DNA from: Lactobacillus sp. 0.1XD8-4
Lineage (GTDB): Bacteria > Bacillota > Bacilli > Lactobacillales > Lactobacillaceae
NCBI RefSeq assembly: GCF_009663775.1
Contig: NZ_RDBR01000002.1
Location: forward strand, 1-64,000
Direction: 5' to 3'
DNA: 64,000 nucleotides
Below are positions 11,245 through 33,354 of this stretch, piece after piece; position 1 is the first letter of the stretch, and each line of letters starts with the position of its first letter. Under the pieces are notes generated by a model. It ran no database searches and had not been told where the DNA came from. It saw nothing but the letters and a program-made list of their open reading frames with translations. A program made the translations under genes and the position numbers.

Positions 11245-11273
11245 TTGACACTTTTTTAGGAACCACCTAAGAA
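11245..11273 (+). promoter_or_regulatory. ppsA promoter with overlapping inverted repeat
   Basis: A consensus TTGACA lies at 11245-11250. The best -10 at 17 bases is the poor TAAGAA at 11268-11273. An inverted repeat, TTAGG-AACCA-CCTAA at 11256-11270, covers the spacer and enters the -10. A perfect -35 with a weak -10 and an overlapping palindrome suggests a regulated promoter, with the repeat as a candidate operator. Confidence 0.5.
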
Positions 11274-11304: not shown

Positions 11305-13686
11305 ATGGAAAAACGCGAACAGAAAAATGTTTTATGGTTTGATGAATTGCATCGCTCGGATGTCAATCTTGTTGGTGGAAAATCATCTTCACTAGGAGAA
11401 ATGACTTCATCGATGAAAATTCCCGTTCCATACGGGTTTGCGACGACAACCCATGCTTATCATCAATTTATGAATGAAACGGGATTAAACGAACAAATTA
11501 ATGCTCTGCTAGCTGAATTTACTGACTATGAAAATGCTGATGAACTTCATCAAGTTTGTAGCCGCATTCGTAAAATGATTGTTGAAGCGTCAATGCCGTT
11601 TGAAGTTGCTGCAACAATTAAACGGGCGTACGCCGAACTTTCTGAAAAGATGGGTGAGACAGAACCATTTGTGGCAATCCGTTCTAGTGCTACAGCTGAG
11701 GATTTGCCTAATGCATCGTTTGCGGGTCAGCAGGAATCATACTTGAATGTTCAAGGTGCTGACATGGTGCTAAAAAAAGTTCAAGAATGTTATGCTTCCT
11801 TATTTACCGATCGAGCAACTTATTACCGTCATAAGCAGCATTTTCCACATGAAAAAGTCGCCTTATCGGCAGCTGTCCAAATGATGGTTTTCTCGAAGGC
11901 TTCAGGAATTATGTTTTCGGTCAATGTTGCTAACGGTGATGACACGAAAATTGTTATTGATACAATTTGGGGCTTAGGTGAATACATTGTTTTAGGTAAA
12001 GTAACCCCTGACCATTTTGTAATCAACAAGGATAACTTACAGGTTCTTGAACGATCGGTTGTTCCTAAACAAGTTGAACTATTGCAGACGCCGGGTGGTG
12101 GTGTCCATGAAGAACAGGTACCAGCAGAGCGGGCAACTAGACCGGCATTAACAGAAGATCAGCTTCATGAATTGGCTGGGTATGCGAAAGAAATCGAGCG
12201 GCACTACGGTTGTTATATGGATATGGAATTTGCCCTTGATGCACGGACGAACCGTCTTTGGTTAGTACAGGCACGACCAGAAACAGTTTGGTCGAATAAA
12301 GATAACAAGCCATCCGTCAAGGAACAAGTAACAGCACCGAATAAGACGGAAACATTAGTTAAGGGTCTTCCCGCGAGTCCCGGGTTAGCTGCCGGTAAGG
12401 TTCATGTTATTGCGGATCCTAAAGACATTGATCAGTTTGCGGAAGGAGAAGTACTGGTAACTTTGATGACCTCGCCTGATTGGGTACCAGCAATGAAAAA
12501 AGCAGCCGCAATTATCACCGATAATGGTGGGATGACCTGTCACGCTGCTATTGTTTCACGTGAAATGCAGATTCCATGTATCGTTGGAACAAAGAGTTGC
12601 GGGCAGGCAGTTACGGCGGCTCTTCAAAATGGCGCCCAAGTTACAGTTGACGCTAAAAATGGGGTTGTCTACCAGGGCGATGTCCGAGAAAAATTTGCGG
12701 AGAAGAAACAGGAGGGGACACCTTGTGAAACTGTAGAATATTTTGCCCCCACGGCAACTGGCGTCATGATGAATTTGGGTGATCCTGAGCTTGCCCAAAA
12801 ATATGCAAGCCTGCCAGCAGATGGAATCGGGCTGATGCGAGAAGAATTTTTATGGACAACATATATTCACGAACATCCGTTGTACCTGATTGAAACGGGT
12901 CATCCAGAAAAAGTGGTTGATATGTTGGCTGACGGGATCGCTGAGGTTGCGCGGGCAATTGCACCACGTCCAATGGTGCTACGATTCTCCGACTTCAAAT
13001 CTGGTGAGTATCGCAACCTTACTGGCGGTGATAAATATGAGCCGCATGAACCTGCTGACTTACTTGGCTGGCGTGGGGCTTCCCGGTATTACGATCCAAA
13101 ATATATTGAAGCGTTTAAGCTCGAATTAGCTGCGGTCAAGAAAGTTCGCGATGAATTTCAATTAAAGAATCTTAACGTCATGATTCCATTTGTCCGCACG
13201 GTAGAGGAAGCAGCGAAGGTTACGGCATTAATGAACGCGGAAGGCTTACACCATGGGCCAGACTTCAAGGTTTATATGATGGCTGAGATTCCAAGCAATA
13301 TTATTTTAGCTGATCAGTTCAATAAGTATATTGATGGATACTCGATTGGTTCAAATGATTTAGCGATGTTGATTCTTGGCTGTGACCGTAATAACGATAC
13401 GGTTGCTCACCTCTTTGATGAGCGTAATCTTGCAGTCAAACGCGCGATTAGCCACTTAATTAAAGTAGCTCACCGCGATAATAAGACCGTATCAATTTGT
13501 GGGCAAGCGCCATCAGAATATCCAGAATTAGCTAACTTCTTAATCCAGCAGGGAATTGATTATATTTCGGTTAATCCAGACATGGTAAAAGAAACAAAAC
13601 GGAATGTGGCACAGTTTGAACAACGAATAATCCTTGACCAGGCAACTGGCAAAGGACGGCAAACAGCCGAAGTTTACGAATGGTAG
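11305..13686 (+). CDS. ppsA: Phosphoenolpyruvate synthase (pyruvate, water dikinase)
   Basis: Converts pyruvate and ATP to PEP, AMP and phosphate, the entry to gluconeogenesis. It has 793 residues. The N-terminal ATP-grasp domain starts LVGGKSSSLGEM and contains AIRSSATAEDLPNASFAGQQ. The swivelling phosphohistidine domain is GGMTCHAAIVSREM (catalytic His). The C-terminal PEP-binding barrel holds GIGLMREEF and SICGQAPSEYP. The start follows TAAGGAGATGCAGTA. It heads a five-gene run continuing into aldolase and phosphoglycerate mutase homologues, which fits a gluconeogenic role. Confidence 0.96.
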   Translation: MEKREQKNVLWFDELHRSDVNLVGGKSSSLGEMTSSMKIPVPYGFATTTHAYHQFMNETGLNEQINALLAEFTDYENADELHQVCSRIRKMIVEASMPFEVAATIKRAYAELSEKMGETEPFVAIRSSATAEDLPNASFAGQQESYLNVQGADMVLKKVQECYASLFTDRATYYRHKQHFPHEKVALSAAVQMMVFSKASGIMFSVNVANGDDTKIVIDTIWGLGEYIVLGKVTPDHFVINKDNLQVLERSVVPKQVELLQTPGGGVHEEQVPAERATRPALTEDQLHELAGYAKEIERHYGCYMDMEFALDARTNRLWLVQARPETVWSNKDNKPSVKEQVTAPNKTETLVKGLPASPGLAAGKVHVIADPKDIDQFAEGEVLVTLMTSPDWVPAMKKAAAIITDNGGMTCHAAIVSREMQIPCIVGTKSCGQAVTAALQNGAQVTVDAKNGVVYQGDVREKFAEKKQEGTPCETVEYFAPTATGVMMNLGDPELAQKYASLPADGIGLMREEFLWTTYIHEHPLYLIETGHPEKVVDMLADGIAEVARAIAPRPMVLRFSDFKSGEYRNLTGGDKYEPHEPADLLGWRGASRYYDPKYIEAFKLELAAVKKVRDEFQLKNLNVMIPFVRTVEEAAKVTALMNAEGLHHGPDFKVYMMAEIPSNIILADQFNKYIDGYSIGSNDLAMLILGCDRNNDTVAHLFDERNLAVKRAISHLIKVAHRDNKTVSICGQAPSEYPELANFLIQQGIDYISVNPDMVKETKRNVAQFEQRIILDQATGKGRQTAEVYEW

Positions 13687-13705: not shown

Positions 13706-15496
13706 ATGCAAATTTTTGTTGATATTAATGCTTCTGAAAATGGTAATGGTTCACAAGAATATCCTTTTAAGATGATTCAACAGGCAGCTGATATTGCCCA
13801 GCCTGGGGATTATATCCAAATTATGCCAGGTGAATATCATGAGGCTGTTCACCCACAGTATTCTGGAACTAGCGATAAACCAATTATTTATGCTTCAGCA
13901 AAACAAAATCAGGCAATCATTACAGGTGCCGACCGGGTGACCGGCTGGCAACCAGTTAATGACAATGTTTGGATGATTAAGCTCCCTAATACTGAGTTTG
14001 GTGATTATAATCCATACAACTTGCTTGTTAACCAAACATTTAATCATGCGGGCGAAATCTTCCTTAACAATAAAGCAATGTATGAAGTTGACCAATTGGC
14101 AGCGGTAATGGCACCAAAGGAAAACCCGCTTTCACGAGATAGTCAGTTTACTCTTTATACTTGGTATACTGAACAATCACTCGAAGAAGATGTAACGATA
14201 ATTTATGCTAATTTCCAAGATAAGGATCCTAATAAGGAACATGTGGAATTAACCTTCCGTGAAACATGTTTTTATCCTGAGAAAAAGAATATTGACCACC
14301 TTATTCTTTCTGGTTTTACGATGACCAAGGCAGCTTGTCGTTGGGCCACGGCAAAATATAATAAGGGGATTATTGGGACAAACACTGGTCAAGGCTGGAA
14401 GATTGCAAAATGCGATATATCTCATGCAAAATGTTCGGGAATTTCTCTTGGCCGTGATATGGCCCCAACAGTTGATGATACTAAGACCGTTCCTCATCGG
14501 ATTAAGAACAATACCATTCATGATTGTGGACAAACTGGGATTATGGGAGTAGATGGCAACCCATCGCCAATTATTGAGCATAACAGTATTTACAACATCA
14601 ACACGCGCCAAAACCTTGTCAGTGATGATGTGAGTGCGATTAACCTTTCTCCAGCGATTGGCGCCAAGATTCTTCGTAACTGCATCCATGATTGTACACG
14701 AGGAGTATGGCTTGGTGGAAAGGTAGAAGATACGCAGATTTCGCGAAACGTTTTCTACAATAACAGCTTACCTAAGCCGTTCAAAGTTACTGCAGAAAAT
14801 CAGGATGACCTCATAGCAGGGCTAGGCGAAGATATTGAGATCAAGGATTCTGACGGCGTTACGTTAGTTGATAACAACTTCTTGCTATCAGATTGTGCTC
14901 TCAAGTTAGCAACCAAAGGAGTTTTGCTGGTTCATAACTTAATTAACGGTAGTGTAGAGTGGCTAAGTAATAATAACGTCCAAGATAACGACCTCTATTA
15001 CCACCGGCTCTATCAAGAAAATGACAGCAAGATGGATCCATATAGTTCATCATGTTTCTATAATAATGTCTTTATTCGTAAGAGCCTTCGTGATGAAATG
15101 GCAAAATTAATTGCAATTGCACGGGAGCAGGCTGACCAACAGGAAAATGTTGATAACCATGTAAGCGATGACAATGAAGTGTTCGTTGCCCAGTCAAGCA
15201 AGCAACGGAATCACATTAACACTAATAAGGCTGGCAATATCTACCTGAATGACCAAGTAGAAGACGTCACCATTGACGTTGACTCTAATGAAGACGGGGT
15301 ATTTATTGATAGTAATATTTGCGATTACCTTGATGAAGACACGAGCCGGGTCGTTGCCGTTGGTACGACCGCCAATACTGCAATGGACTTTGATATCGAC
15401 TTTTTAGGTAACCATCGTGAAGGAGTAAGTGTTACTGCTGGTCCGTTTGATACTAAAGATGAGTATAGCCACCGGTTATTTAGGTTACTGTTTTAA
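13706..15496 (+). CDS. GH120-like right-handed beta-helix protein lacking the catalytic residues
   Basis: A 596-residue cytoplasmic protein (no signal peptide) that matches the layout of GH120 beta-xylosidases along its length. It starts with F-V-D-x-N-A-S-E-N-G-N-G and PGDYIQIMPGEYHE, then has the DNVWMIKLPNTEFGDYNPY and CFYPEKKNIDHLILSGF segments, and then beta-helix rungs such as NNTIHDCGQTGI. In the characterised Thermoanaerobacterium XylC the nucleophile Asp lies in WLDWE and the acid/base Glu 23 residues on. Here those places read WLGGK (Gly337) and DIEIK (Lys380), with an insertion between. Hydrolysis by the family mechanism is therefore doubtful. The ATG at 13706 follows AAAGGG. The role in this sugar-phosphate operon is unknown. 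Confidence 0.78.
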   Translation: MQIFVDINASENGNGSQEYPFKMIQQAADIAQPGDYIQIMPGEYHEAVHPQYSGTSDKPIIYASAKQNQAIITGADRVTGWQPVNDNVWMIKLPNTEFGDYNPYNLLVNQTFNHAGEIFLNNKAMYEVDQLAAVMAPKENPLSRDSQFTLYTWYTEQSLEEDVTIIYANFQDKDPNKEHVELTFRETCFYPEKKNIDHLILSGFTMTKAACRWATAKYNKGIIGTNTGQGWKIAKCDISHAKCSGISLGRDMAPTVDDTKTVPHRIKNNTIHDCGQTGIMGVDGNPSPIIEHNSIYNINTRQNLVSDDVSAINLSPAIGAKILRNCIHDCTRGVWLGGKVEDTQISRNVFYNNSLPKPFKVTAENQDDLIAGLGEDIEIKDSDGVTLVDNNFLLSDCALKLATKGVLLVHNLINGSVEWLSNNNVQDNDLYYHRLYQENDSKMDPYSSSCFYNNVFIRKSLRDEMAKLIAIAREQADQQENVDNHVSDDNEVFVAQSSKQRNHINTNKAGNIYLNDQVEDVTIDVDSNEDGVFIDSNICDYLDEDTSRVVAVGTTANTAMDFDIDFLGNHREGVSVTAGPFDTKDEYSHRLFRLLF

Positions 15497-15511: not shown

Positions 15512-16291
15512 ATGCGCAAGCCGTTTATTATTGCGAACTGGAAGATGAACAAGAATGTTCATGAATCAGTAGACTTTGTTAAGGCAATTAAGGAGAAACT
15601 ACCAGCAAATAAAGAAATTGGAATTGCAGCGCAGGCAGTTTCCCTCTACAACATGAAAAAAGTGGCAGGGACATCAAATTTACAAATTATTGCCCAAAAT
15701 GCAGCCGCAGAACTTGAGGGACCATATACCGGTGAAATTAGTATGCGTAGCTTAGCTGATGCTGGAGTTACTTATGTCATGCTGGGACACTTAGAGCGAC
15801 GGCGGCTGTTTAATGAGAGTAATACCTCGATTAACCAAAAAGTCCTTGCAGCGCTTCAAGCTGGGATTACGCCGATTATTTGTACTGATGAAGAAATGGT
15901 ACAAACGGAAGTTAATGGCAAAATTCATTATGTTTTTCAGCAGTTAAAGAGTGTATTACGCGATGTTCCAGCGGACAAATTAGCACAAATTGTTATTTCG
16001 TATGAACCGAGCTGGGCGGTTGGCAGCAGCCACCAAGCTAACCCGGAAATAGCCGAAGAAGGGTGTCAGGCAATCCGGCAAAGCCTTGCTGATACTTATA
16101 ACAATGATATAGCGGAGAAGATGCGCATTTTATATGGTGGCAGTGTAAATCCGCAAAATATCTATCAAATTATGAGTAAGCCAAATGTTGATGGTGCATT
16201 GATTGGCCGAGCTAGTCTTGATATCGATAGTTTTTTACAGATGATTAATTATATTGAACTTGCCAGTAAGAAAAAATTACAAGTAATTTAA
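15512..16291 (+). CDS. Divergent triosephosphate isomerase
   Basis: A 259-residue TIM-barrel protein expected to interconvert dihydroxyacetone phosphate and glyceraldehyde 3-phosphate. The catalytic set is kept: Lys in ANWKMN, His93 in LGHLERR, and Glu in SYEPSW. Three normally fixed places differ. GHSERR is GHLERR (Leu94). The loop-6 region PVWAIGTGK is PSWAVGSSH. The CIGE-type motif is CTDE. GGSVNPQN is intact. It sits 15 bases after the beta-helix gene with an AAGGAGGAAGG site. Lactobacilli normally have a canonical tpiA elsewhere with gap and pgk, so this is probably a specialised paralogue. Confidence 0.85.
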   Translation: MRKPFIIANWKMNKNVHESVDFVKAIKEKLPANKEIGIAAQAVSLYNMKKVAGTSNLQIIAQNAAAELEGPYTGEISMRSLADAGVTYVMLGHLERRRLFNESNTSINQKVLAALQAGITPIICTDEEMVQTEVNGKIHYVFQQLKSVLRDVPADKLAQIVISYEPSWAVGSSHQANPEIAEEGCQAIRQSLADTYNNDIAEKMRILYGGSVNPQNIYQIMSKPNVDGALIGRASLDIDSFLQMINYIELASKKKLQVI

Positions 16292-16308: not shown

Positions 16309-17175
16309 ATGGCTTACTTTAATAATGGGAATAAACTTTTTGATGATGCACGAAAGAACCAATACGCAATTGGGGCATATAATATTAATAACCTAGAATG
16401 GACACGAGCAATTTTGCGGGCAGCTGCGGAGACCAATACCCCGGTGTTAGTCCAAGTTTCCATGGGGGCTGCTAAATATATGGGTGGCTATAAATTTGTC
16501 AAGGATATGGTAGAAGATCAAATGGACGCGATGAATATTAAAGTTCCAGTTATTTTAAACCTTGACCACGGTGATTATGATGCGGCGATTGAATGTATAA
16601 ACCTTGGCTATTCATCAGTGATGTTTGATGGACATAAGCTGCCAATGGAAGAAAATTACGCCAAAACAAAAGAGATTGTTCAGTTAGCCCATTCCCGTGG
16701 AATTGCGGTTGAAGCAGAAATCGGTAAAGTGGGCGAAAATCAAGATACGAGTAGTGGCGAATTAGCAGATGTCGAAGATGCAATGGCTTTTGCGGCAATG
16801 GGTGTTGATCGCCTTGCCTGCGGAATCGGTAATATTCATGGTATCTATCCGGCAGACTGGCAAGGGCTAAACTTTGACCGGCTACAAGAGATCGCGGATG
16901 CCATTGATATTCCATTGGTCCTGCATGGTGGCTCGGGAATTCCTAAAGATCAAGTTCAAAAGGCCATTTCAATGGGAATTGCGAAAGTCAACATCAATAC
17001 TGAATTTCAGTTAGCTTTCCAAGATGCTACTCGAAAGTATATTGAAAATGAGCTTGACTTGAATAAGAATAATAAAGGGTATGATCCGCGAAAATTATTA
17101 TTACCCGGCACTGATGCAATTACTGATAAAATGAAAGATATGATTGAATGGTTAGGCACTCCAGCAGTAGCCTAA
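16309..17175 (+). CDS. fba: Class II fructose-bisphosphate aldolase
   Basis: A 288-residue zinc-dependent aldolase that joins or splits fructose 1,6-bisphosphate and the two triose phosphates. Family motifs: LNLDHGDY (Asp and the first zinc His), YSSVMFDGHKLPMEEN, EAEIGKVGE, the His in NIHGIYP, and LVLHGGSGIP. The tail KVNINTE is typical. Tagatose-bisphosphate aldolases are close relatives, so that sugar cannot be excluded. It lies between the divergent TPI and the phosphoglycerate mutase homologue, 17-18 bases from each, which supports a shared triose-phosphate pathway. Confidence 0.92.
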   Translation: MAYFNNGNKLFDDARKNQYAIGAYNINNLEWTRAILRAAAETNTPVLVQVSMGAAKYMGGYKFVKDMVEDQMDAMNIKVPVILNLDHGDYDAAIECINLGYSSVMFDGHKLPMEENYAKTKEIVQLAHSRGIAVEAEIGKVGENQDTSSGELADVEDAMAFAAMGVDRLACGIGNIHGIYPADWQGLNFDRLQEIADAIDIPLVLHGGSGIPKDQVQKAISMGIAKVNINTEFQLAFQDATRKYIENELDLNKNNKGYDPRKLLLPGTDAITDKMKDMIEWLGTPAVA

Positions 17176-17193: not shown

Positions 17194-17850
17194 ATGGCGA
17201 TTACAGTTTACTTTGTTCGACACGGTGAGACATATTTTAACCGGTTTGCTCGTTTGCAGGGATGGTCAGATACTCCCTTGACGGAAAAGGGGATTGAAAA
17301 CGCACAAAAAATAGGTGAAGTACTTGCTGATTTACGGATTGATTATCTCTTTTCAAGTGACTTAAAGCGTGCTGTGGATACGGCGCGAATTTTAATTGCA
17401 AACCATCCGACAGCAACGATGAAAGAACCGGTCCAAAAAAAGTTTTTCCGTGAAGTTTTCTATGGGTCTTTTGAGGGCCATAGTAATGAAGAAGGGGCGA
17501 TTTGGGCGAGCTGCCTTGGTGAAAAACGATTTCGTCGGATTGGTGAAGTAGTTGATGAGTTTGGCGTTGAAAAAGCACATGATTTGCTTAAAGCAGCTGA
17601 TCCGGCTCACCTTGCAGAAGACAGCAGAGAGCTAAATACCCGTGTTGAACAAGCAATTTCTTTTCTCCGTGATTTGCCAGACAATAGTAATGTTGTTGTC
17701 GCTACCCACGGCTCAATTATTCAATATATTGCGGGGATGTATGGGGATGCGCGCCGCAAGTATGAGAATCTGCATAATGGTGCCTTGATGAAGATGGTTT
17801 TAGATAAGGAACAAACAACAGTTGCTTCGTATAATCAATTTACACTATAG
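17194..17850 (+). CDS. Histidine phosphatase family protein (phosphoglycerate mutase-like)
   Basis: A 218-residue protein with the catalytic RHGET motif near residue 9 and the second His in VVATHGSI. The branch includes both cofactor-dependent phosphoglycerate mutases and broad phosphatases. It lacks the full set of mutase-only motifs, so phosphatase is as likely as mutase. It is last in the ppsA cluster. A near-perfect bidirectional terminator follows. The start uses GGAGGTTGTGGC before ATG. Confidence 0.88.
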   Translation: MAITVYFVRHGETYFNRFARLQGWSDTPLTEKGIENAQKIGEVLADLRIDYLFSSDLKRAVDTARILIANHPTATMKEPVQKKFFREVFYGSFEGHSNEEGAIWASCLGEKRFRRIGEVVDEFGVEKAHDLLKAADPAHLAEDSRELNTRVEQAISFLRDLPDNSNVVVATHGSIIQYIAGMYGDARRKYENLHNGALMKMVLDKEQTTVASYNQFTL

Positions 17851-23427: not shown

Positions 23428-26400
23428 ATGGTATCAAAAAATAACCGTAAGCTAATTGCGGAGAAAAACCGCAAAAATGAGAAGCAACGTTTTGCATTGC
23501 GGAAGTTAAATGTAGGTGTAGCTTCAGTTCTGTTAGGGGTTACGTTTAGTATATACGGCGGGGGACAAATGGTTGCCCACGCGGATACGACTGATAATGG
23601 CGGACAGACTGGGGATACTGCTAAAGTGACTAATGAACAATCGCCAGCTACTCAGTCACAAGTTACTTTGGATAATTCTAGTACTGAGAATGACCAAGAA
23701 GTTACCAATAATAATGTAGCTGGTACTTCATCGTCAGCAGGAACCCAAGGGGGGGTGGCAGACGCTAATGCTGCCAATGCTGGTAAGGACTTAGTCGAAG
23801 CGAAGATAACGCAAGAAAACCCTGTAGCTGGTAATGGGGATGTTATCAATCGCGATCCGCAAGTTAAAGAAACACCAACGAAAAACCAAAGTATTGATAA
23901 AACAAGTGTGCAAGCTGAAGAAAATCCTACTGCAATTACAGTTACTGATGCTCAAGGACTGATTGATGCGATTCAAAATGGTAAGTATACTACCATTAAT
24001 ATCAGCAAGGATATTGATCTAGGAAAGAAGAGTACTAGCCAGACTCACGTGGAATCTATTACTAATAAACGTGATATTGTAATTAAGTCTTCAGATGATA
24101 ATAAATATGTCGTTGACTTTAATGGTTACTCATTTAATATGAGTGGTCAGAATGGGGTTACTTTCAATAATGTAGATGTTTATGGTCGTTCATACTGGTC
24201 TCCATTTGAGAATGCAAATTCCTATACTTTCGATAATATGGATTATCATGGTTCCCAATTACTTTATACTGATACTTCCGTTCCAAGTGTAACTGTAAAC
24301 TTTAAGGGAACTGTTAATGCCGAATCTGTTAACGGATATACTAGTCCTGTAAATCATAACAATCAAACTACCCAAGGTAGCGGTAATCAACAGGTTATTC
24401 AATTTAGAAGTGGAAATAATACAATTAACTTTGAAGCCGGTAGCAAGGTCAATTTAAAGACCTACGGTAGTAATGTAATTGAAATTGATGGTGGTACTAC
24501 CTCAATTAACGTTAAATCTGATAATGGAACTAACGGTGCACAAGTTACTTTAGAACCACATACTCAGACTACACCAGAGCCAAACTTCATGAATGTAGAT
24601 GGTGTTGGTAGAGGTATTGCATCACAAGGTACAACGAATATTAATCTTGATAAAAGTGCCGATTTAACAATTAATTTAAGCAAATTATCAACGGATAAAT
24701 GGTTTTCAGGAGCACTTTATCTAACTCAAGGAGCTACTATTGAAAACCAAGGTACTTTGACGGTAAATTCAGATGGTGTTCCTTATAACAAAGATATTGA
24801 TGCACCAATTTACATCGGTGGCAATTCAAAGATCAATGTTAATGGTGGTCAATTTAATGTTAATGCTAAGAATCTAGCTGATTATGGTGGTGGATTAGTC
24901 GTTTCTGCAGGCACTTCAACTATTAGCATCAACCACCATGGAACTTTTGATGTAACGGGTGATGGAACCAAAGCTACTGCTGTAAGTTTGGGATCTGGTA
25001 GTACATTTACTTCAACTCAACCAGAATTATTTAGTATTGACATGCCAGAAGGAGCTACTGCCATCAAGAATGGTAAGGTTAGCTTCAAGGGTGTTAAGAC
25101 CTCTGAAAATGGTCAGCCAATTGGTGAAATCGACGTAACCTATGCCGCGGACGGTACACCTACAGTTACTAAGGTAACTAGTGCTGATAGACAAACTGTA
25201 ATTGATACTAAGGCTGCTGGGGATGCTGCTAAGAATAAGATTAACTTGATAGCAGCAGGTAAAGAAGTTGAATTAACTAATATTACCTTCAATAAAGATG
25301 CAAATGGTGACTACATCATGGCTGGTAATGCTAACACTGCTGATGGTGACGGTGCTTACGTTTACATCAATATTAATGGTAGTGAAACCCCGGTTAAGGT
25401 TACTGGTAGTGGCAGTCAAACTATTTACTCCATTACTAATACTGAAACTGAGCCAACTGCTACCGAAGTACCATACACTGTTCAAACTAGTGCAGATGGT
25501 AAATTCTCAGTTAACTTAGGTCAATTGAAGGATACTGATACTGTTTCAGTACACGCTGACAAGGACTTCGTAACTAGTGATACTGATACTAAGACTGTTT
25601 CTGAATGGATGCTCAACAGTTACAAGCAACAATTGCAAGATTTGATTAATGAAGCTCCAACAGTAGAAGGCAGCAAGAATTATACAGCTGCTGATACTGA
25701 TAAGCAGACTGCATATACTGATGCAATTACAGCTGGTAGCAACTTGTTGGCAGACACTAGTGCAACCACTGAGCAAGTTCAAAACCAAATTACTGCAATT
25801 ACTAATGCTAAGAAGGCTTTGAATGGTGATAGTAATGTTACAGATGCCAAAAATGCTATTCAAAATGCTCTTGATGCAAAGAAAGCAGCAATTACTGCAG
25901 CTACAAACATTGATCAAACTGAAAAAGGTAAATTAATTAGTGACGCAGAAACAGCTGCAACTAATGCCAATACTGCAATTGATCAAGCGACTACCGCAGA
26001 TGCAATCAATACTGCCAAAACTACCGGTATTGAAAACATTAATAATGTTACAATTCCAAGTCTTGATAGTGCCAAGACTGACGCGAAAGCAGCAGTTCAA
26101 GAAGCATTAACCAAGAAGTTAACTGAAATTAATAACGCTCAAAATATTAATCAAACTACAAAAGATAAATTAACTGCTGATGCAAATCAAGCAGCTACTG
26201 ATGCTAACACTGCTATTGACAATGCAACTACTAATGATATTGCAACTAAAGCGGGCCAAGATGGTGTTGCCGCAATTAACAAAGTCACAGTTCCATCAGT
26301 AACTGATAGTCAAACTGCCGCAAAAGACGCTGTTCAAAAGGCGCTTGACGCTAAAAAGACAGAAATTAACAACGCAACTAACATTGATCAAGCTGAAAAA

Positions 26401-29400
26401 GATAAGTTGACCAAAGCAGCTGAAAATGCCGCAGACACTGCCAACAAGGCAATTGACCAAGCAACCACCGCAGATGAAATTAAGAAGGCTCAAGATGAAG
26501 GAACTACCAACATTAATAATGTTAAAGTTCCAAGCTTAGAAGATGCTAAAAACGAAGCTACTAAGGCTGTAGACGATGCGCTTACTAAGCAAACTGATCT
26601 TATTAACAAAGCCTCTAACTTAAGTGATAAAGAAAAGCAAGACTTGGTAAAGCAAGCTACTGATGCCGCTAACGCTGCTAAGGATAAGATCAACGCTGCA
26701 ACGACTAATAATGAAGCAGCTAAGGCCGGTCAAGACGGTGTTGATACAATTGAAAAAGTCGTTCCAACTAGTTTGGATAAGGCGAAAGCTGATGCAAAAG
26801 CAGCAGTTCAAGAAGCATTAACTAAGAAGTTAACTGAAATTAATAACTCTCAAAACATTGATCAAGCAACTAAAGACAAATTGACTGCTGACGCAAATCA
26901 AGCAGCTACTGATGCCAATACTGCTATTGACGCTGCTAAAACTAATGATATTGCAACCCAAGCAGGCCAAGACGGTGTTGACGCAATTAACAAAGTCACA
27001 GTTCCATCAGTAACTGACAGCCAAAATGCCGCTAAAGACGCTGTTCAAAAGGCGCTTGACGACAAGAAGGCAGAAATTAACAACGCAACTAACATTAATC
27101 AAGCTGAAAAAGATAAGTTGACCAAAGCAGCTGAAGATGCCGCAGATACTGCCAACAAGGCAATTGATCAAGCAACTACCGCAGATGCAATCAAGAAGGC
27201 TCAAGATGAAGGAACTACCAATATTGATAATGTTAAAGTTCCAAGCTTAGAAGATGCCAAAAACGAAGCTACTAAGGCCGTAAACGATGCGCTTACTAAG
27301 CAAACTGAGCTTATCAACAACTCTAACAACTTGAGTAGTGCAGAAAAGGAAGACTTGGTAAAGCAAGCTACTGATGCCGCTAACGCTGCTAAGGATAAGA
27401 TCAACGCTGCAACGACTAATGATGAAGCAGTTAACGCCGGTCAAGACGGTGTTGATGCAATTGAAAAAGTCGTTCCAACTAGCTTAGAAGATGCTAAAAA
27501 TGCTGCAAATAAAGCAGTTGATGATGAATTAACTAATAAGTTAGATGAAATAAACAAAGCAACTGACTTAACAACTGACGAAAAAGCTGCTTTAACTAAA
27601 GAAGCAAATGATGACGCTGAAGCAGCTAAGGAAGCTATTTCTAAAGCAACAACTAATGATGCCGCAACTGAGGCAGGTCAAGACGGCGTTAAGAAGATTG
27701 ATGGCATCACTGTGCCAGAAAAATCACCAGTTAAGACCAAAGCAGAAACTGATCTCAACAATGCGGTTACTGAAGCTAAGAACGCCATCGATCAAGATAC
27801 CAACTTAACTGATGAGCAAAAACAAGCAGCTAAGGATCAAATTGATGCCAATGCTAAGACTGCTCAAGACGCAATCAATAACGCTAAGACTAACGCAGAT
27901 GTAACTAATGCAGTTGACAACGGTAAGCTTGCAATCGACAAGAACGTTGCCAATGCCGCAATCGATAACGCAGCAGCTGGCAAGCTCAAGGAAATTAAGG
28001 CTCCATTAACTACTGATGAGCAAAAGACTTATACTGATTTAATCAACTCTGAAGCTAACAACGCCAAGCAAAACATTGCTAATGCTACTACTCCAGAAGA
28101 AGTAACTACTGCTCAAACCAATGGTGTAAATGAAATTAATGGCACTAACATCCCAACTACTTCTAAAGTTAAAGAAGATGCACTTAATGCAATTAAGACT
28201 GCTCTTGACAACAAGACTAAGGAAATCAATGATTCCCAGAACATCAATGCTCAAGAAAAAGCTGATTTAATCAAGCAAGCACAAGATGCCGCAAAGACTG
28301 CTGACGACAACATCAACAACGCAACCACCAACGCAGCTGCAGAGACTGCTCAAACTAACGGTGAAAAGGCAATCGCTGATGTAACTGTTCCAAACTTATC
28401 TGATGTTAAGAAGCAAAATATTGATCTTGTTAACAAGGCTTTAGATGCTAAGAAAGACGAGATTAACAATGCATCTAACCTTTCTGATGATGAAAAGCAA
28501 AAGTTAGTCAATGAAGCAACTAATGCCGCTACTGACGCAATTAACAACATTAATGGCGCTAAGACTAATGATGAAGCTAAAGAAGCCGCAAATACTGGTG
28601 TTCAAAACATCGAAAACGTCAATATTCCAAGTCTTGATGATGCTAAGAAGAATGCTAAACAAGCAATTGACGATACTTTGAAGGCTAAAGTAGCTGAAAT
28701 TAACAAGGCTTCAAACTTGAATCCTACTGAAAAGCAAAACTTGATTGATAAAGCTACTGATGCTGCTAACACTGCAAAGACCAACGTCGACAAGGCAACA
28801 ACTAATGATCAAGCTAAAGATGCTGCCGATGAGGGTATCCAAAACATCAAAGGTATCACCTTTACTTCATTAGATGATGCTAAGAAGGCTGCCAACACTG
28901 CAATTGATAATGCATTAACTGCTAAGAAGAATGAAATTGACGCAGCCAACAACTTAAGCGAGACTGAAAAGCAAAAATTAGTTGATGAAGCTACTCAAGC
29001 TGCTAATACTGCAAAAGAAAATATCAGTAAAGCTCAAACCAACGATGCAGTTAATGAAGCTCAAAATAAGGGTACCGAAGCAATTGCTAACGTTAACGTT
29101 CCAAGCTTAGACCAAGCTAAGAAAGACGCAATTAATGCCATTAAGCAAGTTCAAGCAGCTAAGAATGCTCAAATTGCTAAAGCTGACAACTTAAGTGCTG
29201 ACGAGCAAAAAGCATTAACTGATCAAGTAGATAAGATTGCCAACGATGCTATTGCGGAAATCAATAAGCCAACTACAACTACTAACGATGCAGTTGCTGC
29301 AACTCGTGATGATGCCATCAAGCAAATCACTGACTTGTTCATCCCAACTTTAAGTGGTGCACAAAAAGATGCCCGTGATGCAATCGAAAGTGCTAAGAAC

Positions 29401-32400
29401 GCTAAGATCGACGACATTAATAACGCTACTCACTTAACTGATCAAGAAAAACAAGATTTGATTGACCAAATAAATAAGGCTGCAGATGCTGCAACTGACG
29501 CAATCAAGTCAGCGCAAACTAATGACGCTGTAAAGAATGCCGAAACTGCAGGTTTGAACAACATTAATAAGGTCACTATCCCTAGTCTTGCGGACAAGCA
29601 ACAAGCAGCTATCAAGGAATTAGATGCTGCTCGGGCTGCTAAGATTGCCGCAATTGACGATGCTAGTGATTTAACCACTGATGAAAAGAACGCTTTGAAA
29701 GACAAGGTTCAATCTACTTACAGCAACGCCGTAGAAAATGTAACTAAGGCAGTTACTGATCAAGCTGTAACTGAAGCTAAAGACAATGGTATCAAGGCAA
29801 TTAATAGCATTGAAGTTCCAGCTAAGTCAGCTGATAAAGAAAAGGCCAAGACTGATCTTACTGACGCAGCTAACAAGGCTAAAGAAGCCGTTGATCAAGA
29901 CAGCAACTTAACTGCTGAAGAAAAACAAGTAGCTAAAGATCAAATTGACCAAGATGCTAAGAATGCAGAAGATGCAATTGAAAAGGCTAAGAATGTTGCT
30001 GATGTAACTAAGGCTGCTAACGACGGCACGCTCGCCATTGACAAGGACGTTGCTAATGCCGCGATTGATAATGCAGTAGCTGGTAAGAAGGACGAAATTG
30101 CAAAATCATCATTAACTGACGAAGAAAAGACTGCTTTAAACAATGAAGTAGATCAAAAAGCTCAAGACGCTAAAGAGGCAATTGATGCTGCAACTACTCC
30201 AGAAGCTGTAACCAGCGCTCAAGAAAGTGGCATTAAGAATATCGAAAATACTGAAGTGCCGACTGTATCAGCAGTGAAAGAAGCAGCAAAGAAAGCCGTA
30301 GCAGATGCTGCAGCAGCTAAGAACAATGCAATTGATTCTTCAAACTTAACCGATGAAGAAAAAGCTGCATTGAAGAAGAAAGTCAGTGATACCCAAAATG
30401 CTGCCAATAGCGCTATTGATAGTGCAACTACAAACGCCGCAGTAACCGAAGCAGCAGACAATGGTGTTAAGGCTATTGATGGTATTGAAGTACCAACTAA
30501 ATCGACCGCTAAAGATCAAGCAACAGCTGACCTTAACAAGGAAGTTGATGAAGCTAAGAAAGCAATTGACCAAGACAACAACTTGACTGCTGAAGAAAAA
30601 CAAGCAGCTAAGGATCAAATTGATTCTGATGCTCAGCAAGCCCAAGAAGTCATCAACAATGCTAAGACCAATGATGATGTCAAGAAGGCGGTCGATGAGG
30701 GTAGATTAGCTATTGACAAGGACGTTGCTAATGCCGCGATTGATAATGCAGTAGCTGGTAAGAAGGCAGAAATTGCTAAGTCATCATTAACTGACGAAGA
30801 AAAGGCTGCTTTAAACGATGAAGTAGATCAAAAAGCCCAAGACGCTAAAGAGGCAATTGATGCTGCAACTACCGATCAAGCGGTAGAAACAGCTAAGAAT
30901 AAAGGTATCGATAGCATTAATGGCGTTGAAATTCCAACTAAGTCTCAAGTTAAGACTGACGCCGCCACTAACATCGATAAGGCTGCCGCTGATGCGAAGA
31001 AAGCTATCGACAACACGCCAGACTTAACTAACGATCAAAAGCAAGCTGCTAAAGACCAAATTGACCAAGATGCTAAGAAGGCGAAGGACGCAATCGCTAA
31101 AGCAACTGACGACAAGGGTGTTCAGGATGCCGCTGATGCCGGCTTACTGGCAATCAACAAGGTAACCGCCAAGGCAGCTATTGATTCGGCGCTTGCAACT
31201 AAGACTGCTGAAATTAATAATTCTGCTTTAACTACTGAAGAGAAGGCCGCCTTAACTAATCAAGCTAACCAAGCCGCACAAACAGCTAAGAATAATATTG
31301 ACCAAGCTAATACAGTAGTTACGGTTGAAACCGCCAAGGAAGCTGGTATTAAGCAGATTAATAATATTCACGTTCCGGCAACTTCTGCGGTAAAGGATGG
31401 AGCAATTAAGACGATTAATGAGGCCTTGTCTAACAAGATCAATGAAATCAATAATGCTTCAAACATTACATCAGCAGAAAAGGCGGACTTGATTGATCAA
31501 GCAACCAACTTAGCTAATATCGCTAAGGATAACATTAGCCAAGCAACGTCTGATGAAGGGGTCGCAACAGCTACAACCGCTGGAATTAACGCGATTGCAA
31601 ATGTAACGGTGCCAAGCCTTGATAATGCTAAGGACCAAGCAAAGAATCTGATTGATGACGTTCTCAACGAAAAGAAGAATGAAATCAATAATGCCAATAA
31701 CCTTTCCGATCGTCAAAAGGAAGACTTGATTAAGCAGGTAACTGATGCCGCGGATACTGCCAAGAAGAATATTGATAACGCTACAACTAATAGTGATGTT
31801 CAAACGGCAGAAAACAATGGTGTGCAAGCAATTGAAAATGTTGTCGTTCCTAACCTTGACGATGCTAAGAAGACCTCGACCAAGGTTATCGATGATGCAT
31901 TGAATGAAAAGGTTGCAGAAATTAATAATGCTAATAATCTTTCAACGGCAGAAAAAGATGCGTTAATCAAGGAAGCTACAAGTATTGCTAATACCGCTAA
32001 GGATAATATTGCGAAGGCAACAACTAATGACGCGGTTAAGGACGCTGAGACTGCCGGCGTAAAGGCAATTCTTAACATCAAAGTTCCAGGTCGTGAAGAT
32101 GAACAGCAGGATGCAATTACTGCGCTTGACCAGGCTTTAGCTAATAAAGTTAATGAGATTAATAATGCTAATAATCTTTCTGCTGATGCTAAGCAAGCAC
32201 TCAAGCAACAGGCACAGGCAGCATACACGACTGCCGTTGACAACGTAAAGTGCGCTCAAACTAATGCGGAAATCAATACGGCACGGGATAACGGTGTACA
32301 AGCAATTCTTGATGTATTGGTACCAACATTATCTGATGCCAAGAGTACTTCAATTGTTGCAGTTGAACAGGTCCGTGATGCTAAGAATACTCAGATTGAC

Positions 32401-33354
32401 GCTGCTAAGAACTTAACAGCTACCCAAAAGACAGAATTGAAGCACCAAGTTGATAGCATTGCGAAGAAAGCTATTGCTAATATCAACAGCGCAACAACTG
32501 ATGAGGCGGTTAAGGCTGCTGAAACAGCAGGGGTTAACGAAATCCTAAATCTTAATATTCCAAGTCTTGACGCGGCCAAGAGCGATGCTAAGCAAGCAAT
32601 TGCAGATGCGTTGACAGCTAAGACTGCGGAAATTAACGCTGCCCAAAACCTAAATACTACTGAAAAGCAGGCCTTAATTGATCAAGCTCAATCAGAAGCT
32701 GCTACAGCCAATCAGAATATCGATGCAGCATTAACCAATGCTGCTGCTACCCAAGCTGCTAAGAATGGTGTGCAAGCTATTTTGGGTATTCAAGTACCAA
32801 CAGTTGATGAAACTCGCAACCAAGCTGATCAAAATATTGATAAGGCTTTAAAGGCTAAGAAGGATGAGATTAACAAGTCTGACCTTAGTTCTTCTGATAA
32901 GGCGGCCTTAATCAATGAAGCTGACCAAGCTGCTGATAATGCGCGTGCTGTTATTAGTAAGGCAACGACAGCTGCGGAAATTAGTAACGCAGAGGCTGCG
33001 GGAATTGCTGCAATTGAGAATATTAAAGTATCAAATTCTGCTACAGAAGATAACAGCAAGTCGAGTCAACAACCTGTTACTGAAACGCCAACAGGTGATA
33101 ACAAGACTAAACAAGATGACAGCACTTTACGCCAACCTGCTACCCAAGAAAGTAACCGTCGTGGTGTAAAGGGTGGCTTAACAGCACCGGCTAGTCAAAC
33201 AAATGAACATGCTACTGATAACAATGCAACTGGTCAGGATAAACTACCACAAACTGGTAATGAAACTAACCGTGACTTAAGCGTTGCTGGATTAGCAGTT
33301 GCAAGTCTATTAGGATTATTTGGACTTTCAGGTCTTAGCAAGAAACGTGATTAA
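23428..33354 (+). CDS. Giant YSIRK/LPQTG wall-anchored adhesin with DUF1542-type repeats
   Basis: A 3308-residue surface protein. Residues 1-52 are a YSIRK-class signal peptide (FALRKLNVGVASVLLG, cleavage likely after AHA). About 150-560 is a pectate-lyase-like beta-solenoid adhesive region rich in Asn, Gly and Thr. A FIVAR-like helical domain lies near 730-800. From about 807 to 3200 I count 31 helical repeats of 68-80 residues with the pattern EINxAxNLSxxEK...AATTN...GVxxIxxVxVPSL, the DUF1542 type also found in staphylococcal Ebh. A short linker precedes LPQTG (about 3273-3277), a hydrophobic helix and KKRD. It should be a sortase substrate and form a long stalk holding the solenoid tip away from the wall. 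The ligand is unknown. Confidence 0.93.
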   Translation: MVSKNNRKLIAEKNRKNEKQRFALRKLNVGVASVLLGVTFSIYGGGQMVAHADTTDNGGQTGDTAKVTNEQSPATQSQVTLDNSSTENDQEVTNNNVAGTSSSAGTQGGVADANAANAGKDLVEAKITQENPVAGNGDVINRDPQVKETPTKNQSIDKTSVQAEENPTAITVTDAQGLIDAIQNGKYTTINISKDIDLGKKSTSQTHVESITNKRDIVIKSSDDNKYVVDFNGYSFNMSGQNGVTFNNVDVYGRSYWSPFENANSYTFDNMDYHGSQLLYTDTSVPSVTVNFKGTVNAESVNGYTSPVNHNNQTTQGSGNQQVIQFRSGNNTINFEAGSKVNLKTYGSNVIEIDGGTTSINVKSDNGTNGAQVTLEPHTQTTPEPNFMNVDGVGRGIASQGTTNINLDKSADLTINLSKLSTDKWFSGALYLTQGATIENQGTLTVNSDGVPYNKDIDAPIYIGGNSKINVNGGQFNVNAKNLADYGGGLVVSAGTSTISINHHGTFDVTGDGTKATAVSLGSGSTFTSTQPELFSIDMPEGATAIKNGKVSFKGVKTSENGQPIGEIDVTYAADGTPTVTKVTSADRQTVIDTKAAGDAAKNKINLIAAGKEVELTNITFNKDANGDYIMAGNANTADGDGAYVYININGSETPVKVTGSGSQTIYSITNTETEPTATEVPYTVQTSADGKFSVNLGQLKDTDTVSVHADKDFVTSDTDTKTVSEWMLNSYKQQLQDLINEAPTVEGSKNYTAADTDKQTAYTDAITAGSNLLADTSATTEQVQNQITAITNAKKALNGDSNVTDAKNAIQNALDAKKAAITAATNIDQTEKGKLISDAETAATNANTAIDQATTADAINTAKTTGIENINNVTIPSLDSAKTDAKAAVQEALTKKLTEINNAQNINQTTKDKLTADANQAATDANTAIDNATTNDIATKAGQDGVAAINKVTVPSVTDSQTAAKDAVQKALDAKKTEINNATNIDQAEKDKLTKAAENAADTANKAIDQATTADEIKKAQDEGTTNINNVKVPSLEDAKNEATKAVDDALTKQTDLINKASNLSDKEKQDLVKQATDAANAAKDKINAATTNNEAAKAGQDGVDTIEKVVPTSLDKAKADAKAAVQEALTKKLTEINNSQNIDQATKDKLTADANQAATDANTAIDAAKTNDIATQAGQDGVDAINKVTVPSVTDSQNAAKDAVQKALDDKKAEINNATNINQAEKDKLTKAAEDAADTANKAIDQATTADAIKKAQDEGTTNIDNVKVPSLEDAKNEATKAVNDALTKQTELINNSNNLSSAEKEDLVKQATDAANAAKDKINAATTNDEAVNAGQDGVDAIEKVVPTSLEDAKNAANKAVDDELTNKLDEINKATDLTTDEKAALTKEANDDAEAAKEAISKATTNDAATEAGQDGVKKIDGITVPEKSPVKTKAETDLNNAVTEAKNAIDQDTNLTDEQKQAAKDQIDANAKTAQDAINNAKTNADVTNAVDNGKLAIDKNVANAAIDNAAAGKLKEIKAPLTTDEQKTYTDLINSEANNAKQNIANATTPEEVTTAQTNGVNEINGTNIPTTSKVKEDALNAIKTALDNKTKEINDSQNINAQEKADLIKQAQDAAKTADDNINNATTNAAAETAQTNGEKAIADVTVPNLSDVKKQNIDLVNKALDAKKDEINNASNLSDDEKQKLVNEATNAATDAINNINGAKTNDEAKEAANTGVQNIENVNIPSLDDAKKNAKQAIDDTLKAKVAEINKASNLNPTEKQNLIDKATDAANTAKTNVDKATTNDQAKDAADEGIQNIKGITFTSLDDAKKAANTAIDNALTAKKNEIDAANNLSETEKQKLVDEATQAANTAKENISKAQTNDAVNEAQNKGTEAIANVNVPSLDQAKKDAINAIKQVQAAKNAQIAKADNLSADEQKALTDQVDKIANDAIAEINKPTTTTNDAVAATRDDAIKQITDLFIPTLSGAQKDARDAIESAKNAKIDDINNATHLTDQEKQDLIDQINKAADAATDAIKSAQTNDAVKNAETAGLNNINKVTIPSLADKQQAAIKELDAARAAKIAAIDDASDLTTDEKNALKDKVQSTYSNAVENVTKAVTDQAVTEAKDNGIKAINSIEVPAKSADKEKAKTDLTDAANKAKEAVDQDSNLTAEEKQVAKDQIDQDAKNAEDAIEKAKNVADVTKAANDGTLAIDKDVANAAIDNAVAGKKDEIAKSSLTDEEKTALNNEVDQKAQDAKEAIDAATTPEAVTSAQESGIKNIENTEVPTVSAVKEAAKKAVADAAAAKNNAIDSSNLTDEEKAALKKKVSDTQNAANSAIDSATTNAAVTEAADNGVKAIDGIEVPTKSTAKDQATADLNKEVDEAKKAIDQDNNLTAEEKQAAKDQIDSDAQQAQEVINNAKTNDDVKKAVDEGRLAIDKDVANAAIDNAVAGKKAEIAKSSLTDEEKAALNDEVDQKAQDAKEAIDAATTDQAVETAKNKGIDSINGVEIPTKSQVKTDAATNIDKAAADAKKAIDNTPDLTNDQKQAAKDQIDQDAKKAKDAIAKATDDKGVQDAADAGLLAINKVTAKAAIDSALATKTAEINNSALTTEEKAALTNQANQAAQTAKNNIDQANTVVTVETAKEAGIKQINNIHVPATSAVKDGAIKTINEALSNKINEINNASNITSAEKADLIDQATNLANIAKDNISQATSDEGVATATTAGINAIANVTVPSLDNAKDQAKNLIDDVLNEKKNEINNANNLSDRQKEDLIKQVTDAADTAKKNIDNATTNSDVQTAENNGVQAIENVVVPNLDDAKKTSTKVIDDALNEKVAEINNANNLSTAEKDALIKEATSIANTAKDNIAKATTNDAVKDAETAGVKAILNIKVPGREDEQQDAITALDQALANKVNEINNANNLSADAKQALKQQAQAAYTTAVDNVKCAQTNAEINTARDNGVQAILDVLVPTLSDAKSTSIVAVEQVRDAKNTQIDAAKNLTATQKTELKHQVDSIAKKAIANINSATTDEAVKAAETAGVNEILNLNIPSLDAAKSDAKQAIADALTAKTAEINAAQNLNTTEKQALIDQAQSEAATANQNIDAALTNAAATQAAKNGVQAILGIQVPTVDETRNQADQNIDKALKAKKDEINKSDLSSSDKAALINEADQAADNARAVISKATTAAEISNAEAAGIAAIENIKVSNSATEDNSKSSQQPVTETPTGDNKTKQDDSTLRQPATQESNRRGVKGGLTAPASQTNEHATDNNATGQDKLPQTGNETNRDLSVAGLAVASLLGLFGLSGLSKKRD
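26064..27485 (+). repeat. 711-bp tandem duplication inside the adhesin gene
   Basis: Two adjacent copies (26064-26774 and 26775-27485), each encoding three DUF1542 units of 79 residues, are offset by exactly 711 bases and are nearly identical in DNA. Other units in the gene are more diverged. This indicates a recent unequal exchange that lengthened the stalk by 237 residues. Confidence 0.85.

Follow-up and report, generated by a model that had tools for sequence, protein, structure and literature searches.

Why should some Limosilactobacillus genomes keep a GH120 beta-xylosidase-like protein that carries neither of the residues on which GH120 catalysis depends, and what might such a protein do among enzymes of central carbon metabolism? 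The question arises from a window of 64,000 nucleotides (the whole stretch of DNA analysed) in a Limosilactobacillus genome, G000, whose nearest named relative is L. rudii, 90% identical over the gene in question. This gene, here termed pGH120 (GH120-fold pseudo-xylosidase), lacks the GH120 catalytic pair, is conserved, and lies in a central-carbon operon. The features on which the argument turns are listed below; operon genes were assigned from profile matches and operon order.

11245..11273, + strand: promoter-like pair TTGACA - 17 bases - TAAGAA, 5' of ppsA (by eye)
11305..13686, + strand: ppsA, phosphoenolpyruvate (PEP) synthase, first operon gene
13706..15496, + strand: pGH120, 596 aa (open reading frame, Pfam, TsXylC alignment, model)
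13937..14251, + strand: GH120 insertion domain PF21258, residues 78-182 (Pfam, E 6.9e-27)
14714..14716, + strand: Gly337 codon, aligned with TsXylC nucleophile Asp382 (HMMER alignment)
14765..14830, + strand: 22-residue stretch between the catalytic positions, residues 354-375 (length comparison)
14843..14845, + strand: Lys380 codon, aligned with TsXylC acid/base Glu405 (HMMER alignment)
15512..16291, + strand: tpi2, triosephosphate-isomerase (TIM) paralogue
16309..17175, + strand: fba, class II fructose-bisphosphate aldolase
17194..17850, + strand: histidine phosphatase / phosphoglycerate-mutase-like gene, last in the operon

The GH120 fold and its altered catalytic pocket

The pGH120 reading frame extends from an ATG at 13706 to a stop codon at 15494-15496 and encodes 596 amino acids with no N-terminal signal visible by eye; a TTG at 13634 provides a possible longer start that runs into ppsA, but the alignment of all 12 orthologues begins at the ATG. 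The similarity to GH120 described in the earlier note is borne out by Pfam, which recognises a beta-helix domain and the insertion domain PF21258, the latter in all 12 orthologues, and by phmmer, which matches the sequence to a single solved protein, XylC of Thermoanaerobacterium saccharolyticum (TsXylC, 3vst; E 3.7e-72). Pfam returned no enzyme family except GH120, and no NCBIfam model scored over its cut-off. TsXylC (PDB 3vst/3vsu/3vsv) has, like pGH120, a right-handed beta-helix with a GH120 insertion domain. Superposition on the TsXylC structure, proposed earlier as a check, was carried out with a predicted model (mean pLDDT 82.9, pTM 0.88, built from 40 aligned sequences) and gave Z 35.4 and rmsd 2.7 over 509 aligned residues, the next entry reaching Z 24.3; as a control, the intact XylC paralogue of G000 was modelled and gave Z 41.1 and rmsd 2.3 over 603 aligned residues.

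In TsXylC, following the naming in PMC8954004, Asp382 is the nucleophile and Glu405 the acid/base, and the same source describes loss of activity on replacement of the Asp or Glu in Lr-XylC, the active L. reuteri enzyme, and in two Blautia enzymes. A careful alignment, which might have returned an intact Asp and Glu to the active site, instead gives Gly337 and Lys380, the substitutions first read from the window sequence: around both positions the HMMER alignment of pGH120 to TsXylC is ungapped, with WLD matched by WLG (Gly337) and FVEVSHG by EIKDSDG (Lys380). The comparison set comprised 50 other GH120 rows from which exact duplicates had been removed, equivalent to 47 distinct genes (rows L100-L102 re-read L050, L043 and L022). 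At the nucleophile column Gly is present in 12/12 pGH120 orthologues and Asp in 50/50 other rows, while the acid/base column holds Lys in nine orthologues, Gln in one and Glu in two (G030 and G031), with Glu in 50/50 others; the anticipated conservation among orthologues thus holds for Gly337 but not for Lys380. Given that Glu survives in two of 12 orthologues and Gly occupies the nucleophile position in all of them, the Glu would have been lost after the Asp, or regained.

Changes extend to the surrounding pocket, for which TsXylC residue numbers were counted from the phmmer alignment. The Lys358 column holds Asn in 12/12 pGH120 sequences and Lys in 50/50 others, and four further columns, each fixed in the 50 other rows, differ within the clade: Glu353 (D 9, T 2, E 1; Asp in the window protein), His360 (S 9, L 2, F 1; Ser in the window protein), Asp364 (G 11, D 1) and Pro410 (V 9, L 2, F 1). 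As regards GH120 membership, the window protein therefore has the beta-helix fold and the insertion domain, lacks the nucleophile Asp and the acid/base Glu, and has changed equivalents of Glu353, Lys358 and His360. Over 121 columns conserved in intact XylC, a count based on 49 intact rows with the truncated L023 excluded, pGH120 keeps 69, has switched 7 to another fixed residue, and varies at 45. The clade has 48 specific fixed residues, with no clade-specific fixed Asp or Glu found in residues 220-390; five acids common with intact XylC (Asp273, Glu291, Asp329, Glu375 and Asp376) are fixed across pGH120. The pattern of substitutions suggests that pGH120 does not hydrolyse xylosides, and a beta-xylosidase annotation is not warranted.

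The earlier note had also raised the possibility of phosphosugar binding. In five hand-chosen pocket segments, the net charge ranges from -6 to +1 in pGH120 (mean -3.5) and averages -4.3 in the 49 intact rows. A phosphosugar pocket built on Lys380 is therefore unsupported, because the Lys varies among orthologues and the pocket segments stay about as negative as those of intact XylC; neither charge nor conservation lends weight to the idea.

The insertion previously noted between the catalytic positions is present but is not peculiar to pGH120. Besides pGH120, a length of 22 residues was found only in Limosilactobacillus-type XylC and in row L039, which comes from a different genus; all other rows have 17 residues or fewer, and the candidate of a pGH120-specific insertion was rejected on the equal length in the intact XylC of the genus. 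A separate difference lies in the segment near TsXylC residues 271-305, most of which is missing from pGH120; nothing in the pGH120 model corresponds to helices 266-270 and 275-288 of the intact model, a low-confidence region.

Distribution, origin and selection

pGH120 occurs in 12 of 50 Limosilactobacillus genomes and forms one clade, with an SH-aLRT of 100 in a quick tree and 100/100 support in a careful tree of 26 rows chosen from 62 read, long branches being flagged. The deeper fork of its placement was unsettled in the quick tree; in the careful tree a branch supported at 100/100 separates pGH120 and Limosilactobacillus-type XylC from the remaining rows. The closest intact relatives are Lr-XylC and the XylC paralogue of G000 (G000:C36), both of which share the 22-residue stretch and that side of the branch. 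Unlike pGH120, these enzymes have both catalytic residues, which in the G000 paralogue are Asp372 and Glu415 (the latter numbered as in PMC8954004, which writes the former as Asp382); the paralogue is encoded at another locus, where ppsA, tpi2 and fba are absent. The shared length together with the tree grouping indicates that the catalytic loss is derived, and pGH120 arose by duplication from a Limosilactobacillus-type XylC gene.

Outside the genus, no full-length match at clade identity (52% or more) was seen in 397 family genomes, and 395 order genomes yielded no match at clade level as judged from scores, genus members being included in both counts. Those GH120 matches outside the genus whose loci were read carry both Asp and Glu. 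Five plasmid records match pGH120 at 27-37% identity, and one viral contig matches residues 218-400 at 27%. We regard pGH120 as a GH120 pseudoenzyme clade that is specific to this genus and lies in a probably gluconeogenic operon. Eight of the 12 pGH120 genomes have no intact GH120 match (one of the eight, G022, is only 75% complete), and for this reason GH120 matches in Limosilactobacillus cannot all count as beta-xylosidases. A search by title or abstract start found no published description of the pGH120 gene or operon; two extracellular GH120 beta-xylosidases are reported for L. reuteri 121 in PMC5347244, and that pair may include pGH120.

All 12 copies are intact, full-length reading frames, even between species at 53% protein identity. 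Ratios of dN/dS (NG86; deeper pairs excluded for saturated dS) are 0.04 for G000 against L. rudii and 0.06 each for L. reuteri against L. balticus, L. reuteri against G035, and G031 against G030. The values are 0.06-0.15 in the four pairs that involve G038 and 0.06-0.12 in the remaining pairs of that group, with the exception of the nearly identical pair G035/G022, whose 0.42 is based on few changes. For pairs of intact XylC they are 0.02-0.06. pGH120 thus appears to be mostly under purifying selection, G035/G022 being the exception. Between G000 and G031, protein identity is 53% for pGH120, compared with 76% for ppsA, 67% for tpi2, 83% for fba, 68% for the phosphatase and 81% for intact XylC, and this faster divergence points to weaker constraint on pGH120 than on its neighbours and on intact XylC. 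Outside the G035/G022 pair, pGH120 therefore shows the combination expected of a pseudoenzyme, namely a lost catalytic motif with the frame and purifying selection kept.

A probable gluconeogenic operon and the link to ppsA

The order ppsA - pGH120 - tpi2 - fba - histidine phosphatase is found in 12/12 genomes, with pGH120 always second. The sequences flanking the operon are of three kinds, one each for the reuteri group, L. caccae and G030/G031. For G035 adjacency means gene order only, because its record (L063), with genes end to end on one strand and mostly no intergenic DNA, looks like concatenated coding sequences. The description of the operon as glycolytic in type stands insofar as it consists of central-carbon enzymes; a gluconeogenic role fits better, the evidence being that PEP synthase opens the operon and that PMC5193401 lists the phosphofructokinase of L. 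reuteri DSM 20016 as not detected, an absence that calls for care because GAPDH and enolase are listed likewise. Genome G034 fits this strain, whose lreu_0237-0239 match in length (259, 288 and 218 aa; PMC5193401), and in which PMC8954004 also found no predicted beta-xylosidase. In the early-stationary comparisons with glycerol reported in PMC5193401, the log2 increases are 3.73 and 3.96 for the aldolase of DSM 20016 and 3.69 and 3.67 for its mutase-like gene, equivalent to 13- to 16-fold (log2 3.67-3.96), which also favours the gluconeogenic reading. The table in that source lists no glycerol response for the operon TIM. Class III fructose bisphosphatase (PF06874), the sole class searched, was found in 0/50 genus genomes, and on that basis we would guess that the histidine phosphatase of the operon acts on fructose bisphosphate.

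The distribution of ppsA ties pGH120 to the first gene of the operon. Among 22 genus genomes with ppsA, the 12 in which it is joined to tpi2-fba all have pGH120 and the other ten have none. fba is present in 18 of the 50 genomes, namely the 12 with pGH120 and six without it (G034, G042, G023, G048, G019 and G026), four of which belong to the ten that have ppsA but lack pGH120. In G034, G042, G023 and G048 there is no ppsA upstream of tpi2, and the contigs of G019 and G026 stop just upstream of tpi2. Neither tpi2 nor fba lies beside the pGH120-less ppsA at seven of eight full-length copies or at the G048 copy, with G011 and G019 left out; the ppsA of G048 contains a stop, and that of G019 is split between two contigs. 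In G034 (L086 8950-9351) the ppsA promoter-like block runs straight into the tpi2 ribosome-binding site: ppsA and pGH120 have been cleanly deleted together, and tpi2-fba-phosphatase has been retained. The ppsA-pGH120 association may go back to a single joining and a single loss.

None of the 50 genus genomes gave a match to PF03618, the usual PEP synthase regulatory protein. As a substitute for that regulator pGH120 was rejected, since PF03618 is also absent where ppsA occurs without pGH120 and its absence therefore does not track pGH120. Before the start of seven pGH120-less ppsA genes (L088, L093-L095, L097-L099) there is a box that, by eye, resembles a CcpA (catabolite-repression) site.

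TIMs have the motif GHSERR, with a near-universal Ser96. tpi2 and the compared operon copies read GHLERR, with Leu at the Ser96 position and Ala in G048 and G026, and keep the catalytic Lys, His and Glu. G000 carries two more TIM genes, one at G000:C30:8510-9265 with 68% identity to tpi2 and another with 46%.

Possible roles of pGH120

We favour, at a probability of roughly 0.45, the reading that pGH120 is a non-cutting binding, scaffold or regulatory partner in the gluconeogenic operon. Its likeliest point of action would be the PEP synthase step, because pGH120 is joined to ppsA and was lost together with it. A Limosilactobacillus-type XylC gene was duplicated, and the copy lost the nucleophile Asp (Gly in 12/12), other conserved pocket residues and the region that forms helices in the intact model. 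The acid/base Glu has gone as well in 10/12, with the beta-helix framework kept, mostly under purifying selection. Under the favoured reading, the operon would carry flux from pyruvate to PEP and from triose phosphates to hexose phosphate, and pGH120 would serve it as a partner rather than as a hydrolase. Against this, G038 (L064 4165-6294) keeps an open pGH120 downstream of a ppsA split into several frames; the faster divergence of pGH120, the dN/dS of 0.42 in G035/G022, the Glu retained in two orthologues and the missing glycerol entry for the operon TIM also weigh against it. A more speculative proposal, which we consider rather doubtful, is that a glycoside hydrolase was turned, within a single genus, into a dedicated PEP synthase partner or a new GH120-fold enzyme linking gluconeogenesis with a sugar signal, in bacteria where neither PF03618 nor PF06874 was found.

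The main rival is a neofunctionalised enzyme whose active site has formed anew on the GH120 beta-helix; such an enzyme might, for instance, work as a lyase, epimerase or isomerase on one of the sugar phosphates in the operon pathway. The general fold is common to lyases, epimerases and fructotransferases, dN/dS values of mostly 0.04-0.15 and the five retained acids agree with continued function, and the 7 switched columns and 48 clade-specific fixed residues could mark a new site. The region of residues 220-390, however, has gained no fixed Asp or Glu of its own, the old pocket is largely variable among the 12 orthologues, and the profile searches point to no enzyme family other than GH120. 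On balance we regard a new activity as unlikely, if well ahead of the remaining alternatives.

A slowly decaying or hitchhiking XylC left at the ppsA/tpi2 junction would account for the faster divergence of pGH120 relative to its neighbours, for the single dN/dS of 0.42, and for its disappearance from G034 where the downstream genes were retained. Such a relic would hardly be expected to persist as a full-length open frame in 12/12 genomes across species only 53% identical, nor to give 0.04-0.15 in the other pairs with unsaturated dS, and we consider this explanation improbable. More improbable still is continued glycosidase activity through migrated catalytic residues or another acid. Glu378 lies two residues before Lys380 on one predicted strand (377-380) and would be a candidate, but this position is not conserved (E, K, T, H and Q over the 12 orthologues), the nucleophile position and the Lys358 column are uniformly Gly and Asn, and replacement of either catalytic residue inactivates Lr-XylC according to PMC8954004. 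Least probable of all is a regulatory or structural role as hetero-oligomeric partner of an active XylC: the two proteins share ancestry, and dead paralogues that activate live ones are described elsewhere (PMC5201418, PMC3663545), but the partnership is very unlikely because eight of the 12 pGH120 genomes lack an intact GH120 match, and the XylC gene lies away from the operon in G000 and at the three other XylC loci read.

pGH120 has a parallel in the GH28 pseudoenzymes of leaf beetles as described in PMC6549527, which are likewise dead relatives of sugar-cutting enzymes that are kept and matter for a pathway; they differ in belonging to an insect, to pectin digestion and to another family, with many paralogues and no operon. 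pGH120 is a natural case of a bacterial glycosidase without its catalytic pair, kept in a central-metabolism operon and with the Asp apparently lost before the Glu, and it offers a testable claim on the control of hexose-phosphate synthesis in heterofermentative gut lactobacilli.

Downstream of the operon, window positions 23428-33354 contain a 3308-aa open frame, possibly a large surface protein, which shows 42-56% identity where three related loci allow comparison.
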